Assembly: GCF_000723185.1 (NCBI RefSeq)
Contig: NZ_CBTY010000011.1
Location: 101,403-165,402, forward strand
Length of the DNA: 64,000 nucleotides
Source: Candidatus Nitrosotenuis uzonensis
GTDB lineage: Archaea > Thermoproteota > Nitrososphaeria > Nitrososphaerales > Nitrosopumilaceae
Direction: 5' to 3'
Position numbers and translations under genes: made by a program. The notes beneath the pieces are model-generated. The model ran no database searches. It was given only the letters and a program-made list of their open reading frames with translations, and had not been told where the DNA came from. Each line of letters begins with the position of its first letter. Within the stretch, counting starts at the first letter, position 1. Shown piece by piece: positions 37,007 to 46,323 of the stretch.

Positions 37007-40000
37007 TCATTGATAGTCCGTAAGCAGTAGTTGGTCTCCCGCTCTTTTGCCGAACACCAGGTCTATTTCATCGGACAGCGTGTTAATTCTACCTTTCAGA
37101 TACGGGCCCACGTCGTATTTTTCTACCAATCTCTTTGCAAGGCGAAGGTACTTTTCAATTGACGGTCTTGTTATGGTCTGGATGAGATTGTTACCGCATA
37201 CGCAGTGCTGGATTAACGGTACTCGGCGGTATTTCCTACCGCACGCTGTACACCTGAACTTTTGCCTACCGTATGCGCGAAGGTTGCCTATAATGTCTGG
37301 TACCAAGTGAGTTGTTATCACGTTAGTTACGATCTCTGTTGCGTCTACTGCACCTATCAGCTCGGCGTTTCTTATTTGCAGGTCGAATTTATCAAGCATT
37401 GAGCCCAGCGTAGAGTATGCACTGCGCGATCTTGAGGTTGTAAGAGTCGATGTCTCGTGGGTGTAATAGTAGCCGTAAAATTGAGTCTCCGTTTCCAGGC
37501 GAGCTTTGATTATCTCTACGGACGTGACCTCGGTCGCCTTTTTTCTCTGCAGTGTATCCTCAAAGAACTCGAGTGGAAGTGTTTTTGTCACTTCAAAGTT
37601 GTGCGCCTGAGGCTGAGATTCATGTGGAAGTACTACAGGTTGGATGAGCAACGGTGCGTCCATAAGGCCGCCTATTTTGTCGGAAAGAAACTGCCTTGAG
37701 AAGTTGAGCAAGGCGTCAAGCAATAGCATTATCGAGTCAGCATCGCCGTCTGCATCCCTGCGTTTTGCAGAGTGCCAGTTAGGGGTTCCAAAGCAGACAT
37801 GTGTGTCTGTATATCCGATTATTCTTCCCACTATACCGACAGAGGTATGCGGTGCAAGACCGATTATTAGGTGGCCTACAAGCTCGTCGGTGTTTTTGAC
37901 GTTATAGAATGGCTGCCTGCCATACAATTTTTCCAGCTCAAGATCAATGTACTTGCATGCCTGCACCAAGTATTTGCCGCTCTCGTGTGGAATTATTACG
38001 TCCTGCATTTTTATTTCGATCATTTGATCAGGACTGCTCAGTGGGATACCGTCAATGTCATGTGTATATCCAAGCTCGTGCAGTTTTTGTATGGGAGTAC
38101 CTATCCAGCGCGGCTTAAAGTGGGTGAGCGGCGAGTTGGTTGCATCAAACCTGACTGTTCCATCCTTGAATACTGTAAGATCCAATGACTGCCTGATGAG
38201 TCCTTTTTCCAGCGGTTCGGCTATCCTGTCTTGACCGATAAGTTCCATTACCCCCTTGAAGGGCTCTTGTACTCTTATGCCGGTTTTTTCTTGCGCAAGA
38301 AAGAGCTTTTCTTTTAGCGGAAATGGCTTGAATGAATGTGTCGGGGCTTTTTTCTTGCATTTTTGGCAGAATGGTTCCTCAAGCGTAGCTCTGCAAATCG
38401 GGCATGTCAATTCCACCGCCGTTTTGTTGCCGCATTTTTGGCACATGATGCTAATTGATGGTTCATTGCATGCCTTGCACATTCTGTTGTTTATGTTGCA
38501 GTAAAAATTGGGAGACGTGCAAGCCTTGACTATATCTCGTGTTATGCCGCCCTTATCACCTGTTGGAAACAGTATATGGACTGGGGGCTTCATTAGCCTT
38601 GGCGCTGCCTTTTCCGGGCGACCTATTCTGACTCCAATAGATGTTGAGAATTTTGGCCTTATTGTTATGCCTGATGATTTTGAGATCGTTTCAGGTACGG
38701 TTTCAGCGTACTGCAGTGGGTTTGCAAAGAGAAGCTGGTAGAATATTTCAGCCTCCAAGTCTTGAATCACGATCTCCGATTCTGATACCTTGTGCGGTAC
38801 GCCGATTTTTTCTAGAATCGGCTTGCACCTGCTTGCGTACCGAATCGCATTCTCTTCTATTTTTAGTGGTGAGGCAAGCTCACGAAGCTCCTCGATTGTG
38901 ATTTGTTCCCAGTAGAAGAGGTATTGCGGGTGTAATGGGATTTTAAAGTTCAGTGAAATCTCAAGTGCCTCTTCAAAGTCGGGCGTCCTCTGCAGGAACT
39001 CGCCTAGCTCTGAATTCGGTTCGTATTTGAGAATCCGTTGTTTTAGCTCTTCAATCCAAAACTCTTCTACATACCCGGAAGGAATCAGCTGGGCGTTGTT
39101 CTCTAAAAAGTCGCCGTATGAGATCAGTATGTCCCCAAGATAAAGCACTTTTTCAATCTGGTCTCTAATTTTTATTCCATGTTCTACATCCTTTATCTTT
39201 ACAACCTCGCCGCCCTTGAGCCGGACCGTCGGGGTTTCAATTGTGTCTACAAACGCCACCGTTGCCCCTTTTCCAGGAATATCGATCTTTATCTGGGTTC
39301 CAACCGCTATGGTGTGGTGTAGAATTTCTGCAATGACCGGATGAATTCCGACGGCTGCAAACCCGGTGTTACATGCCCGGCCGTACCTGAGCCTAAAACC
39401 TCCTATCTTGTTTGGTAGCGAAAGTACGGATCTGCCGGTAATTACCTCTTTGAGCCTTTTTGCAGCCGAGTCTTCTCCATCCCCTTTCTGCACTCCTCCC
39501 TTAATCAGGCCCAGCCATTCCCAGCCATCAAGCTTGTAGAGATCTATTCGTTTGAGTAGCTTCTTGGCCCGCCCTATGAGGCCGTCGTTTAGGACGCGCA
39601 GTGCGCCGCCCCGAACGCGGTCGGTTTTGATTCTCACCATGTTCTTGTGGTTTACTACTTCGTTCGGGTCTGTATCAACTCCATCAAGTTCTACTGGCAA
39701 GTTGGAGATTACAGTGACTATATCTTCATCATGTACGTGATATTGAAAGCTGCCCACATCCCGCTCGTAGATGCGCAGCTCCTCGACAAACCTGCCAGTT
39801 TCATCGTCAAACGAGTTTGCTTGGTATTTTTGCAGCCCTACAGTACGTCTTACATGGTCTGCTATGAGCATGGTGACAGCCGATTCTGTGCCTCCTGCAG
39901 AACGCATCGGACCGGCAATTGACACTGATAGATAGTCCGTGCCGTCCCTGTTTTTCTTGATTGTAACGCTGTTAATTCCCTGAAGAGGCGCTATTGTGAC

Positions 40001-40375
40001 CCCCTCAGTAACTATGGCAAGCCCAACACGCACTGCGTTGTCAAGCCTTTTTTCAAGTGGCGTATCCTCTGGAAGGTACCTGCCAAGAGCTATGTTTTTT
40101 GAAATCTCAAGTGCGGCCAGCTCCTTTCCCATCGTCTTTAGTAACTCTCTTAGCGGTTCGGCAATGTCTATATCATGCATCTTTGCCACCCGATCTGCAA
40201 GATCAAATGCAATCTTAGGTTCCACTATTCCTGAAGAGTCCACAAGGGTGGATTTGGCCTGTGCTGCGTGCTCAAATATCTTGTATGTGTTCTCAGACAA
40301 GCTGGCGTAATAATCCAAATAGTATGTTGGCATAGGTATCCCATTAAGGCGGGATGTTGCCGCATTCTCCGACAT
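37007..40375 (-). CDS. polC: DNA polymerase D large subunit DP2
   Basis: Catalytic subunit of the archaeal replicative polymerase PolD. The 1122-residue protein is uninterrupted (no intein). Features in order: N-terminal helical region, the double-psi beta-barrel core with SIAGPMRSAGGTESAV and the catalytic DADGDAD (RRDADGDADSIMLLLD), two zinc-binding groups around CKACNEPSISIMCQKCG and CPICRATLEEPFCQKC, and a last zinc site CTACGRKYRR ... CVCG. The C-terminal QLLLTDYQ may be a PCNA-interacting box. DP1 lies 4.5 kb away on the same strand beside orc1. The GGGP synthase gene lies one base upstream. Confidence 0.97.
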   Translation of the reverse strand: MSENAATSRLNGIPMPTYYLDYYASLSENTYKIFEHAAQAKSTLVDSSGIVEPKIAFDLADRVAKMHDIDIAEPLRELLKTMGKELAALEISKNIALGRYLPEDTPLEKRLDNAVRVGLAIVTEGVTIAPLQGINSVTIKKNRDGTDYLSVSIAGPMRSAGGTESAVTMLIADHVRRTVGLQKYQANSFDDETGRFVEELRIYERDVGSFQYHVHDEDIVTVISNLPVELDGVDTDPNEVVNHKNMVRIKTDRVRGGALRVLNDGLIGRAKKLLKRIDLYKLDGWEWLGLIKGGVQKGDGEDSAAKRLKEVITGRSVLSLPNKIGGFRLRYGRACNTGFAAVGIHPVIAEILHHTIAVGTQIKIDIPGKGATVAFVDTIETPTVRLKGGEVVKIKDVEHGIKIRDQIEKVLYLGDILISYGDFLENNAQLIPSGYVEEFWIEELKQRILKYEPNSELGEFLQRTPDFEEALEISLNFKIPLHPQYLFYWEQITIEELRELASPLKIEENAIRYASRCKPILEKIGVPHKVSESEIVIQDLEAEIFYQLLFANPLQYAETVPETISKSSGITIRPKFSTSIGVRIGRPEKAAPRLMKPPVHILFPTGDKGGITRDIVKACTSPNFYCNINNRMCKACNEPSISIMCQKCGNKTAVELTCPICRATLEEPFCQKCKKKAPTHSFKPFPLKEKLFLAQEKTGIRVQEPFKGVMELIGQDRIAEPLEKGLIRQSLDLTVFKDGTVRFDATNSPLTHFKPRWIGTPIQKLHELGYTHDIDGIPLSSPDQMIEIKMQDVIIPHESGKYLVQACKYIDLELEKLYGRQPFYNVKNTDELVGHLIIGLAPHTSVGIVGRIIGYTDTHVCFGTPNWHSAKRRDADGDADSIMLLLDALLNFSRQFLSDKIGGLMDAPLLIQPVVLPHESQPQAHNFEVTKTLPLEFFEDTLQRKKATEVTSVEIIKARLETETQFYGYYYTHETSTLTTSRSRSAYSTLGSMLDKFDLQIRNAELIGAVDATEIVTNVITTHLVPDIIGNLRAYGRQKFRCTACGRKYRRVPLIQHCVCGNNLIQTITRPSIEKYLRLAKRLVEKYDVGPYLKGRINTLSDEIDLVFGKRAGDQLLLTDYQ

Positions 40376-41664: not shown

Positions 41665-41683
41665 CATTTGTTCTCATTAAGTG

Positions 41684-42241
41684 ATGCTAATCGAGATTCC
41701 TGACCCACAAATCATAGCTAGTGTGATTATCGCATTCGTGGTTGGTATATTCGGTATGACAATTTACAACAAAATCAGGTCATTTTCGGCCCAGAAAGGT
41801 ATGGATCCTTCATATTTGTCACGCCTAGAGTATTATGAGAGGCAGTTAATCGACATGAAAATACGCATGGATGCACTTGATTTGGAAGAGACTAAGGTTC
41901 CTGCACCAGTAATCGAGAAAGTTGAGGCCGTTTTGGAGAAAAAGGTAGAGGAGCCGGTAAGAAAAGAGCCTGAAAGGCCGGTTTCAAAGCCAAGAATGCC
42001 CAATATGGACTTTAACGGCATAGCAGAACATGTGTTAGGATTAATCACAACCAAGGAAATGACGTCACGTGACATCCAAATCACAATAGGTCGAAGCCGT
42101 GAACACACATCTAGACTGATGAAGCGGCTTTTTGAGGATGGTTTGGTGGAAAGAAATACAAAAAAGAAACCATTCACTTACAAGATTACGGAAAAAGGCC
42201 GGGCCAGATTAGGAAACCTGGAATCGCCAATTACGGCCTAA
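41684..42241 (+). CDS. membrane-anchored winged-helix protein
   Basis: A 185-residue protein: one N-terminal membrane helix (about 7-28, IIASVIIAFVVGIFGMTIY), a coiled-coil/acidic-Pro linker (about 45-105, many KVEEPV- and EKPERP-like stretches) and a C-terminal winged helix (about 110-180, with MTSRDIQITIGRSREHTSRLMKRLFEDGLV and the wing KKKPFTYKITEKGRARLG). It can therefore tether DNA or regulate genes from the membrane. ATG at 41684 is preferred; a GTG directly before it is possible. The upstream GTGAT cluster may be its own binding region. Same design as the C-terminus of the 8033 gene. Confidence 0.75.
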   Translation: MLIEIPDPQIIASVIIAFVVGIFGMTIYNKIRSFSAQKGMDPSYLSRLEYYERQLIDMKIRMDALDLEETKVPAPVIEKVEAVLEKKVEEPVRKEPERPVSKPRMPNMDFNGIAEHVLGLITTKEMTSRDIQITIGRSREHTSRLMKRLFEDGLVERNTKKKPFTYKITEKGRARLGNLESPITA

Positions 42242-42364: not shown

Positions 42365-42523
42365 ATGCTAACAGAAAATGATGAGTTGGTAAAGATCACA
42401 GCAGTAGGCACAATCTCAATACCAAAGCAATTCCGTAAATACCTTGGTATACAGAAGGGTGACTATGTCAAAATCAGTTTGCAGGGCGATTCGCTAGTTG
42501 TTAGGCGGGCGACTATATCCTAG
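42365..42523 (+). CDS. AbrB/MazE-type DNA-binding protein
   Basis: A 52-residue protein, MLTENDELVKITAVGTISIP followed by KQFRKYLGIQKGDYVKIS and a short strand-rich end. This is the swapped-hairpin AbrB fold: V-T-x-V/K-G-x-I-x-I-P-K-x-x-R-x-x-L-G-I-x-x-G-D. Such proteins are dimeric transcription regulators or antitoxins. No toxin gene is adjacent, so a chromosomal regulator is more likely. The stop overlaps the convergent winged-helix gene by four bases. Confidence 0.85.
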   Translation: MLTENDELVKITAVGTISIPKQFRKYLGIQKGDYVKISLQGDSLVVRRATIS

Positions 42524-42906
42524 TCTGCTCTCTGTGGGATTTTTACCAGTTGGTATACCCATTCTCTACCGTTACGCAGCCTGTTAATCCTACCCTTGGT
42601 GTTAAACCTGGCCAAATAAGTCGAAATTATGCTTAGTTTTACAGGTTCGTTATACTCGTCTTCGTATTTTTCCAGTATTTCTGTAGAGGTAAACTTGCCC
42701 ATAGGGAAGTATTTGTCTACTATGTGCCATATTTTGGCACCTACAGAATCCAGTTGTGGTGCCTCCTCCTGATCCTCAATATTCATCAAATCCATTAACT
42801 CGAATATCTTGAGAACTTTATCTCTAGTGATATTGCCTTCTATGTTAAAGTTGTATTTGGCACCATCTGTATCCTCCAAATCTATCCGTATCCTTTTCTT
42901 GGCCAT
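42520..42906 (-). CDS. origin-adjacent winged-helix-like protein, unknown
   Basis: A 128-residue protein not assigned to a family. The N-terminus (MAKKRIRIDLEDTDGAKYNF) is basic and strand-forming; the C-terminal part (about 55-120) looks like a winged helix: VGAKIWHIVDKYFPMGKFTS, TEILEKYEDEYNEP, a recognition-like helix LSIISTYLARFNTKGRI and a wing RLRNGREWVYQLV. It reads away from the origin-like region; its promoter lies among the GTTAAC palindromes, so it may bind them. A replication or partition role is an inference from position only. Confidence 0.7.
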   Translation of the reverse strand: MAKKRIRIDLEDTDGAKYNFNIEGNITRDKVLKIFELMDLMNIEDQEEAPQLDSVGAKIWHIVDKYFPMGKFTSTEILEKYEDEYNEPVKLSIISTYLARFNTKGRINRLRNGREWVYQLVKIPQRAD

Positions 42907-43004
42907 TGTGATCGATCGTGTTAACTAGTTAACAGTTGAATTGATCCGATGATAATTGTTAACCAGTTGAGTTGTTAACATTGACTGCGTGGCTCACGCC
43001 TAAC

Positions 43005-43104
43005 CGTTTTTAGGCTATTAACAATTACACCCACCTGAAAAACCCATATTAATTAGATTTCGTGCCTAGAGTGGAAATAAAGGGGTTGTTTTTAGGCTAT
43101 TAAC
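43005..43104 (+). repeat. 18-base direct repeat in the origin region
   Basis: GTTTTTAGGCTATTAACA occurs exactly at 43005-43022 and 43087-43104. The first copy also forms the inverted repeat GCCTAA/TTAGGC with 42997-43002. A 12-base part, CCGTTTTTAGGC, is also found at 11048-11059 upstream of CdvB. Confidence 0.85.
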
Positions 43105-43147
43105 ACTGTTAATATCGATCTTCACGCCTAGAGTGGAAATAAAGGGG
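43063..43147 (+). repeat. two exact ORB-like elements
   Basis: A 23-base sequence from GCCTAGAG to AAAGGGGT is identical at 43063-43085 and 43125-43147. It contains GTGGAAA and a G-run as in known origin recognition boxes bound by Orc1/Cdc6, whose gene starts 550 bases downstream. Same orientation in both copies. Confidence 0.8.
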
Positions 43148-43372
43148 TCAAATTCGGGTTTTTCCTACCCAATCTTAACATAAACTTAACAGTTTGTGAA
43201 TAAACACACCCCCCATCTTTAACTAGAGACACACCTATACTTCCACTGTTCCTCTTTTCAAAATTTTTTTTAAAAAAGAAAATGAAATGAATGATTAGGT
43301 ATAGGTTGTTATCAAAAACTAACATAATGATTGGAAATTATGGTGTCTCTCTATCTTTTAATGAGGGGTGTG

Positions 43373-43684
43373 ATGGTTTTTCACATGCAGAAGGTAAACA
43401 AAGAAAAACATCAAGCGGCCCTGGAAGAAAAGATAAGAGAATTAGAATTGGAAGGATGGCGTGTTGTTAATCTACATGGAAAGTCACCTGATGCAATAGC
43501 AGTAAAGGATGACCGTATTGTTGCAGTTGAGATCCTAAAAAAAATAAAAACTGAGAGAAAGAACCCAGAGCTGGCCAAAAAGAAAGGCAAGTTCAAATGG
43601 ACATTTGCAGGCGGGTTTACACTTACTAGTAAAAGGTCAAATTATGATATGTTTGATGATGTTATCTTTGGTTTCTACAAATAG
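43373..43684 (+). CDS. origin-adjacent nuclease-fold-like protein, unknown
   Basis: A 103-residue basic protein between the origin and orc1. GAGGGG sits just before the ATG at 43373; other in-frame starts exist at 43340, 43361 and 43385. A helix (HQAALEEKIRELELEGWRV) is followed by VVNLHGKSPDAIAVKDDRIVAVEILKK, which resembles the PD-x(n)-(D/E)-x-K core of restriction-endonuclease-like folds (PD, then Glu in VAVEI), although the usual Lys two residues after Glu is replaced by Leu, with Lys next. A catalytic role is doubtful; DNA binding is plausible. It ends 12 bases before orc1, so the two are cotranscribed. Confidence 0.65.
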   Translation: MVFHMQKVNKEKHQAALEEKIRELELEGWRVVNLHGKSPDAIAVKDDRIVAVEILKKIKTERKNPELAKKKGKFKWTFAGGFTLTSKRSNYDMFDDVIFGFYK

Positions 43685-43696
43685 GTGTGGGAGTAA

Positions 43697-44896
43697 TTGA
43701 GTAACGATCCGGTTGACAAATTATTGGATAACGCAATACAAGGAAACTCACTACTCAAGGATAGAAGCGTCCTGCAGACAAAATTCGAGCCTGAAGTAAT
43801 TTTGCATAGGGATGCAGAGCTAGCCAAGGTAACCCAAGCACTATTACCGATATTGAAGGGAAGTAGGCCATCAAACCTGCTAATATATGGCAAACCAGGA
43901 ACGGGCAAGACCTTGGTAGTTTCCAAAGTACTCTCAAAAATAGAAAAAAAAGTCCAAGACAGCAAATTTCCAATCAAATTCATCTATGCAAACGCCAAAG
44001 ACGAGACTACGATTTACGGTCTGCTGGTTCACCTTGGCTCAAAACTAGGTATAGAATTACCCACGACAGGCCTATCAATTAGCATCGTATTCACTAAAAT
44101 CATAGATACCATAAAACACAATTCCATAAACGCCATATTCGTAGTCGACGAGATAGACTATCTGGCCGAGCTTGCATCAAAGACAGGAAAGGACATACTT
44201 TACAATCTTACAAGGGCAAACGAGAGGCTCAAAGAGGGGGGTTCATTGACCCTTATCGGCATATCAAATCTACTTACCTTCAAGGAACGTCTGGATCCTA
44301 GAGTAATCAGTAGCCTCAGCGAGGAGGAGGTGGTCTTTACCAATTATTCAGTTGATCAGATAAAACAGATTCTTGCGGAGAGAATCAAGTCTGCCTTCAT
44401 AAAAGATGCGGTAGGCGAAGCGGCCCTAAATCTCTGCGCCGCACTGGCAGGCCAAGAGCACGGCGACGCAAGAAGGGCCATCGATCTGCTGCGTGTTGCA
44501 GGCGAGCTGGCAGAACGAGAACAGGCAAATCACGTGACAGAAGAACACATCCGACGAGCAGCACAGAAAATGGAGGAGGACAAGGAATTCACAGCACTCA
44601 ACTCATACCCACTGCATGAAAAGCTGCTAATAGTTGCAGTGATGAGGAGCAACGGTGCCGCAACGGGCGAGGTATATCACACATACAAGGAGCTCTGCAA
44701 AACGATAAGACAGAAGGAGGTAACCCAAAGAAGGGCCACTCAGATACTAAGCGATATTGAGCTCTCTGGACTTATCACAGGAAAGATCATCCATCAAGGT
44801 ATGCATGGAAGGACGAAAAAATACAACCTTACAATCCAACCTGAAACCGTCAAGAAGGCGTTTCAGAATGACATAATTTTAGCAGATATACTCTAA
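43697..44896 (+). CDS. cdc6: Orc1/Cdc6 replication initiator
   Basis: Binds origin recognition boxes and loads the MCM helicase. The 399-residue AAA+ protein starts at TTG 43697, after a purine-rich GGTGTGGGAG. Walker A is YGKPGTGKTLV (about residues 64-74), Walker B is VVDEIDYLAE (about 148-157), sensor 1 lies in LIGISNLLTF and sensor 2 in GDARRAIDLLRVA (about 256-268). The C-terminal winged helix (about 310-399) includes the recognition part VTQRRATQILSDIELSGLI. It converges with DP1 (4-base overlap). Its position next to the ORB-like repeats fits the common archaeal arrangement. Confidence 0.96.
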   Translation: MSNDPVDKLLDNAIQGNSLLKDRSVLQTKFEPEVILHRDAELAKVTQALLPILKGSRPSNLLIYGKPGTGKTLVVSKVLSKIEKKVQDSKFPIKFIYANAKDETTIYGLLVHLGSKLGIELPTTGLSISIVFTKIIDTIKHNSINAIFVVDEIDYLAELASKTGKDILYNLTRANERLKEGGSLTLIGISNLLTFKERLDPRVISSLSEEEVVFTNYSVDQIKQILAERIKSAFIKDAVGEAALNLCAALAGQEHGDARRAIDLLRVAGELAEREQANHVTEEHIRRAAQKMEEDKEFTALNSYPLHEKLLIVAVMRSNGAATGEVYHTYKELCKTIRQKEVTQRRATQILSDIELSGLITGKIIHQGMHGRTKKYNLTIQPETVKKAFQNDIILADIL

Positions 44897-46323
44897 ATTG
44901 CCTTTGGTACAAAATCCTTGGTGTAGACCTTGAACGTCTTTAGATTGACCAAAACCGCAACTGCCGACGTTGGAGTTACTCCTACCCCAGCCTGAAATGG
45001 AGTCTGTGACTGCCAAGCACCAGAGTTTACAAGTAACACGCCCCTGTACAAATCCAATCCTATTACATGAACGTGTCCTGTGTGAAAGATATCGGGCACA
45101 TCATCTATTACCATCAAATCCTCAAGCTCAGGCGCAATCGGAGTTTGTGCCCCGTAAATTGGGCTCAGATGCCTTGCCTTCAGAAGATACTGCATGACCT
45201 TTGCAGGATTATCGTAGCTAAGACCCGGGGTTGTCTTTACTATGTCATCTATACTCTGTCCGTGGAATATGAGCACTTTGACACCGTTTAGCGAGATCAT
45301 TGCAGGGTTGCCAACCATGAAAAAGTTCCTGCGGCCCCACATATCATGACTGTATTTTGCTGGTATTGCAGGCTGTGGTAGCGCGCGCCTACCAGGATCG
45401 TGATTTCCAGGCGAAACGAACACTTTGATGTGTTTTGGTATCTTATCAAGCGCCTCAAAGAGCATCTTCATCTGAGTTGCCGTATCTGGAGCCACAAGCT
45501 CTTTATCCTGATTAGGATAGATACCTACGCCGTCGATAACATCCCCACCAATAACTACGAATCTTACTTTGCGCGCTATGGGGTCTTGGCTTGAAAGCCA
45601 CGAGATCATCTCGGAGAACTCTCTTTCCATAAAATACTTGCTACCTATATGCATGTCTGACAAAAACAATGCATAAGCCTCAGTCCTTGAGCGGTTGGGT
45701 GCATGATCGGGGATATCTGGCAATATTATATCCTTGACGATAAAGCCGCCATTCTTACTTGCCACTATTTTTTCCATGACAAACTGGTCCATGAGCAATG
45801 AAGCTGCGACATCTTTTAGATTCTCATCTAACACTATAGTTTCAATTAGACCCGTGTTGTCCTCAAGCGTGATTCTGGTTACATTTCTATCCGTTTTTCT
45901 ATCTGTAACAAGCCCGCATACGTAGACCTCGTCCTTTGATTTGACAGACATGACTGCAGAGATCTGCTTTAGCATCTTTGATTCAGGCCTGTTCGAGACT
46001 ATTTTCTTTAATTTCGAAAACCTGCTGGCAAAAAGGGCGTTAAATCCTGCAACGCCTTCGGCAGAGGCAATTTTGGGCGTGGGATCAAAGATAATCTCAT
46101 GGTCAGAATCAATCACTTCGTCCTCAGATATGCCCAAAAATACTTCCAAATCCTTTTGTGAGATAAGATAGAGCCGCTGCTTTTCCTTCTCTCTAACTAC
46201 CTGCTTGATTATGTTTTCCAAATCCTTGACATCAATCTGCTCTAAAACCTTGAGTGCATCTGGATGAATTTGGAATCCCTTGTTTAAGGCAAAATCAAGC
46301 GCAGCCCCTACATCTTTTATCAT
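44893..46323 (-). CDS. polB: DNA polymerase D small subunit DP1
   Basis: Proofreading 3'-5' exonuclease subunit of PolD. The 476-residue protein has an N-terminal helical domain, an OB fold (about 115-190, with VCGLVTDRKTDRNVTRITLEDNTG) and an active-looking calcineurin-type phosphoesterase domain: LSDMHIGS, VIGGDVIDGVG, SPGNHDPGR, FHGQSIDD and TGHVHVIG. All metal ligands are present, unlike eukaryotic B-subunits. It converges with orc1 and lies about 4.5 kb from DP2. The divergent SpoIIM-type gene starts 101 bases upstream. Confidence 0.96.
   Translation of the reverse strand: MIKDVGAALDFALNKGFQIHPDALKVLEQIDVKDLENIIKQVVREKEKQRLYLISQKDLEVFLGISEDEVIDSDHEIIFDPTPKIASAEGVAGFNALFASRFSKLKKIVSNRPESKMLKQISAVMSVKSKDEVYVCGLVTDRKTDRNVTRITLEDNTGLIETIVLDENLKDVAASLLMDQFVMEKIVASKNGGFIVKDIILPDIPDHAPNRSRTEAYALFLSDMHIGSKYFMEREFSEMISWLSSQDPIARKVRFVVIGGDVIDGVGIYPNQDKELVAPDTATQMKMLFEALDKIPKHIKVFVSPGNHDPGRRALPQPAIPAKYSHDMWGRRNFFMVGNPAMISLNGVKVLIFHGQSIDDIVKTTPGLSYDNPAKVMQYLLKARHLSPIYGAQTPIAPELEDLMVIDDVPDIFHTGHVHVIGLDLYRGVLLVNSGAWQSQTPFQAGVGVTPTSAVAVLVNLKTFKVYTKDFVPKAI

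Follow-up and report, generated by a model that had tools for sequence, protein, structure and literature searches.

A predicted ORB-type replication origin in Candidatus Nitrosotenuis uzonensis beside an orc1/cdc6 gene that seems to have been replaced in place

The DNA analysed here, a 64,000-nucleotide stretch of the Candidatus Nitrosotenuis uzonensis genome (the window), carries repeated, palindromic and AT-rich sequence upstream of an orc1/cdc6 gene. Two questions are raised by this locus: whether the region is the origin of chromosomal replication, and whether the initiator gene beside it shares the ancestry of its surroundings. The explanation to which we assign a probability of about 0.82 joins an origin with four ORBs, an in-place replacement of orc1 and a second recognition system composed of TTAAC/GTTAA sites.

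ORB boxes and the AT-rich element upstream of orc1/cdc6

The original prediction had placed a replication origin here on the basis of repeats, an inverted copy, palindromes, AT-rich DNA and distances to nearby genes, all of which are present in the window. Two exact 23-mers (GCCTAGAGTGGAAATAAAGGGGT) were found at 43064-43086 and 43126-43148, and an 18-base repeat (GTTTTTAGGCTATTAACA) at 43006 and 43088. The proximity to orc1 and to both PolD genes was also borne out, with orc1 starting at 43697, the small subunit DP1 at 44893-46323 and DP2 at 37007-40375. When up to 3 mismatches were allowed, AGAGTGGAAATAAAGGGG matched only the two repeat sites in the window (mean of 0.02 matches in shuffled sequence), and the equivalent 18-mer matched 2 sites only in the whole assembly (1,636,125 bases in 14 contigs, that of the window being 244 kb long).

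A matrix made from 62 relatives, with the window left out, was used to scan the 244-kb contig. The top four matches all fell within the region, namely ORB3 (27.6 bits), ORB2 (22.7 bits), ORB1 (20.8 bits) and ORB4 (17.6 bits), and the best match outside the origin scored 13.7 bits. ORB1 (CTAGAGTGGAAATAAAGGGGTT, 43066-43087, plus strand) and ORB2 (CTAGAGTGGAAATAAAGGGGTC, 43128-43149, plus strand) lie 62 bp apart. ORB3 (CAGTGGAAGTATAGGTGTG, 43230-43248, minus strand), which ranks first on the contig, is the inverted ORB-like copy that had been claimed at 43231-43251. ORB4 (GATTGGAAATTATGGTGTC, 43329-43347, plus strand) was missed in the earlier reading and is additional to the two exact repeats and the inverted copy. 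The least stable stretch, a candidate unwinding element, lies between ORB3 and ORB4 at 43254-43312; of the 63,950 50-mers in the window, the one beginning at 43254 belongs to the 114 least stable.

This arrangement is conserved among relatives. The spacing of ORB1 and ORB2 is 61-62 bp, and ORB1 is separated by 155-161 bp from the start codon of the divergent gene wH128, in 64/64 family origins compared. ORB3 was detected in 62/62 relatives, an ORB-like site shortly before orc1 is present in relatives too, and their weakest duplex occupies a similar place between ORB3 and ORB4. The gene order DP2-pcrB-120aa-wH186-wH128-ori-orc1-DP1 is also conserved.

A missing skew inflection, or loss of the repeats in close relatives, had been named in the original prediction as grounds for abandoning it. 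All close relatives keep the repeats ahead of orc1, and the GC skew turns at the locus. In G012, a complete genome of the same genus with a record that starts close to orc1, position 1 gave the best half-circle GC-skew switch among 40 sampled segments; the contrast is small (0.026, permutation p 0.019) and is drawn from half of the genome. On the 244-kb contig of the window, cumulative skew peaks at 120-140 kb, and the origin lies at about 144.4 kb.

Four of the attributes looked for in an ORB-type origin were found together: an adjoining orc1/cdc6 (43697-44896, assigned by Pfam and NCBIfam), several ORBs with a TGGAAA core and G-rich end (ORB1-ORB4), inverted ORBs (ORB3 on the minus strand and ORB4 on the plus strand) around the AT-rich element, and a turn in strand composition. 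Repeat conservation and the skew turn both support the reading as an origin, and 42907-43387 is almost certainly, as judged from sequence comparison, the one origin from which this ammonia-oxidising archaeon replicates its chromosome. The type is already known, given that Nitrosopumilus maritimus had its single origin mapped in 2013 (Pelve et al., as cited in passages of PMC4010727 and PMC5333045); ORB repeats beside a cdc gene in this organism are mentioned in a passage of PMC5797428. The N. maritimus origin resembles that of the window in belonging to the same phylum, in having ORB repeats beside cdc6/orc1 and in being the one origin of its chromosome, and the Nitrosopumilus origins in our comparison set have the same layout. 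By analogy with known archaeal origins, Orc1 would bind the four ORBs, of which ORB1 and ORB2 form a tandem pair about six helical turns apart; the inverted pair ORB3/ORB4 flanks the AT-rich element, where the duplex would be opened and MCM loaded. Measured against its family, the origin is unremarkable.

The spelling of the boxes is a different matter. The full dyad TCCAnTGGA is typical of many ORBs. At the corresponding place the window has CTAGAGTGGA, most of its family CTGGAGTGGA and other families CTCCAGTGGA, so that the full dyad is absent from the window; in our view it is not required of an ORB-type origin. It had been suggested that the spelling in the window, CTAGAGTGG..., could define the Nitrososphaerota ORB. 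This suggestion fails because the classic ORB persists elsewhere in the Nitrososphaeria: outside the family of the window, most families of the order have the classic dyad CTCCAGTGGAAATAAAGGGGT, and their usual spelling is CTCCAGTGGAAA...GGGGT, with a pair of ORBs 59-64 bp apart being common, not universal. Given that the classic spelling is kept in other families, the left (TCCA) half of the dyad was lost throughout the family of the window, and the dyad-less box is treated here as a family-specific variant of the ORB. For comparison, the Sulfodiicoccus ORB reads TCCAGTGGAAACAGAGGGGT when reverse-complemented (PMC6647314). Sulfolobus oriC1 with Orc1-1 has in common with the window an Orc1-1-type initiator, TGGAAA...GGGG boxes and inverted boxes flanking an AT-rich element (PMC12141716); the family of the window differs in the loss of the left half-dyad TCCA, the tandem ORB pair at 61-62 bp and a lattice of TTAAC/GTTAA sites.

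Ancestry of the initiator gene and its neighbours

The genome gave one Orc1 match only, the gene at 43697-44896 (plus strand), with Cdc6 domains in Pfam and a match to TIGR02928 in NCBIfam. The initiator next to the origin is of the Orc1-1 type; its nearest solved structures are 2v1u and 2qby_A, and its winged-helix sequence aligns with both. DP2, pcrB, the 120-aa gene, wH128 and DP1 share 79-93% identity with Nitrosotenuis and less with other genera, and faster-evolving genes nearby show lower identities throughout with the same ranking of genera. The identity of orc1, by contrast with these neighbours, is 66-68% to Nitrosotenuis and 68-75% to Nitrosotalea; with the Nitrosotalea MAG L087 it is 75-76%.

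Trees gave the same picture. The Orc1 of the window groups with L087 (100/96), and its placement inside its own genus was rejected by the AU test (p 0.0001); when L087 was omitted, it still joined Nitrosotalea (100/98; AU p 0.003). DP1 (44893-46323, minus strand; identified by Pfam), the right-hand neighbour that overlaps the stop codon of orc1, falls inside Nitrosotenuis in its own tree. Given that orc1 is Nitrosotalea-like and the genes on both sides are those of Nitrosotenuis, the only initiator gene found seems, as far as sequence can tell, to have been replaced at its own locus by that of a different genus, with a Nitrosotalea-like donor. In such an event the flanking genes would have stayed native while the sole orc1 found was exchanged. 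The claim concerns a single genome. Separately, the orc1 of L147, a contig titled Nitrososphaeraceae, groups among Nitrosarchaeum, and the title may be wrong.

A real origin accompanied by a native but fast-evolving orc1, drawn towards Nitrosotalea by long-branch attraction, is the alternative that survives best, and we regard it as unlikely. The Orc1 branch of the window is indeed long (0.43-0.64), and the clade-diagnostic residues are mixed, with 9 of Nitrosotenuis type, 14 of Nitrosotalea type and 13 of neither. Against this, a native placement was rejected by AU tests both with and without L087 under a site-heterogeneous model; identity to L087 (75-76%) is clearly greater than that to the genus of the window (66-68%), L087 is at least as similar as Nitrosotenuis in every block of Orc1, and the neighbouring genes are without such a speed-up.

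The origin sequence is a mosaic with no clear break. Its diagnostic columns lean towards the native type in the left part and towards Nitrosotalea in the right part (Fisher p 0.023), and the identities of its segments are mixed, so no co-transfer of ORBs with orc1 is claimed. The possibility that the CTAG spelling of the window was imported was considered and rejected, the nearest Orc1 relative, L087, having CTGG.

TTAAC/GTTAA sites and the winged-helix protein wH128

Between wH128 and ORB3, TTAAC/GTTAA sites recur in seven clusters of the form TTMAC/GTKAA at fixed places, each occupied in 62-64 of the 64 family origins, which are related and do not represent 64 independent observations. Clusters a, b and c (GTTAACTAGTTAAC, TTGTTAAC and TTGTTAAC) lie at 42919-42979 and are occupied in 64/64, 63/64 and 64/64 family origins, respectively. 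The first copy of the 18-base repeat (43006-43023, plus strand) contains site d (64/64), and the second copy, together with the palindrome TTAACACTGTTAA (43088-43112, plus strand), contains site e (64/64). Clusters f and g (43174-43201) are occupied in 62/64 and 64/64. The GTTAAC palindromes noted in the original prediction are present at 42920, 42928, 42958 and 42974, although their count across the window is ordinary (15 against 11.9 expected). The density of TTAAC/GTTAA at the origin is not: 14-16 sites per 481 bases, compared with a contig mean of 0.57 and a maximum elsewhere of 7. Likewise, G012 has 13 such sites at its origin and at most 5 elsewhere in 800 sampled kb, and among 13 origins outside the family TGTKAA is enriched in the majority, though not in every one. 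These observations are consistent with the lattice being a second, putative conserved recognition system. No prior report of it was found in a limited search of the open-access literature. GATC motifs (GATCGATC and GATCC) at 42907-42950 are conserved next to cluster a in a large part of the family.

The gene divergent from the origin, wH128 (42520-42906, minus strand), encodes a 128-aa protein. The gene is present in 93/121 genomes of the order (76/87 good genomes), and its match adjoins orc1 in many families. The protein is predicted to fold as a winged helix (mean pLDDT 77), for which Foldseek returned generic winged-helix repressors; a weak CopY/BlaI-type match was obtained (E 0.0027), and a profile search of solved structures gave nothing meaningful. 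Next to wH128 lies another winged-helix protein (41681-42238; 186 aa, with a match to HTH_27). On the strength of position, fold and the palindromic form of the sites, wH128 may tentatively be put forward as the most likely binder of the TTAAC/GTTAA sites. Similarly doubtful is a two-part code of Nitrososphaeria origins, in which the ORBs would be read by Orc1 and the lattice by wH128, the two proteins cooperating to initiate replication or to control that step, the Orc1 half here being foreign and the wH128 half native.

The boxes might be mainly transcriptional operators serving autoregulation of orc1 and wH128, with replication starting elsewhere. The region is intergenic between two divergent genes, cluster a is close to the start of wH128, and in relatives ORB4 is close to the start of orc1. 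We nevertheless consider this quite improbable, in view of four ORBs at fixed spacing together with an AT-rich element, the finding of exact sites nowhere else in the genome, the skew turn at the locus and the single N. maritimus origin whose mapping is reported in a passage of PMC4010727. Autoregulation and origin function could coexist.

The 98-aa open reading frame and the proposed exchange of the initiator

In addition to its other-genus orc1, the window differs from N. maritimus in having a 98-aa ORF (43388-43684, plus strand; low-confidence model, pLDDT 54) inserted between the origin, after ORB4, and orc1. Among 398 genomes sampled across the phylum, this ORF was found in the genome of the window only. 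A broken, reversed homologue with 50% identity lies between ORB2 and ORB3 in G006, a member of the same genus; the two copies differ in place and orientation, suggesting separate insertions, and the ORF may be a small mobile gene favouring origins. No match was found among viral contigs, plasmids and phages, and searches of Pfam, NCBIfam, PHROGs and PADLOC turned up no hit that scored meaningfully. A weak AHJR-like endonuclease match (E 0.17), together with the predicted strand order, gives a faint hint of a PD-(D/E)XK fold.

That the difference in orc1 arose from a chimeric assembly, as its occurrence in one genome only might suggest, is scarcely credible, since the divergent part consists of one gene and this small ORF within a 244-kb contig on which the genes to either side, and their order, are native. 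Moreover, identity to the nearest known Orc1 does not exceed 75-76%, which indicates no known contaminant.

Extra origins have been gained horizontally in crenarchaea and haloarchaea (PMC5333045; PMC3528665), and a limited search of the open-access literature found no report of the in-place exchange of a sole initiator. If the replacement of orc1 is true, it would represent a natural exchange of what is apparently the only replication initiator at a native origin, and initiator-origin specificity could then be put to the test in an archaeal group that ranks among the most abundant. The TTAAC lattice, together with the winged-helix gene linked to it, may in turn hint at a second factor that binds the origin, as UBP does in Sulfolobus.
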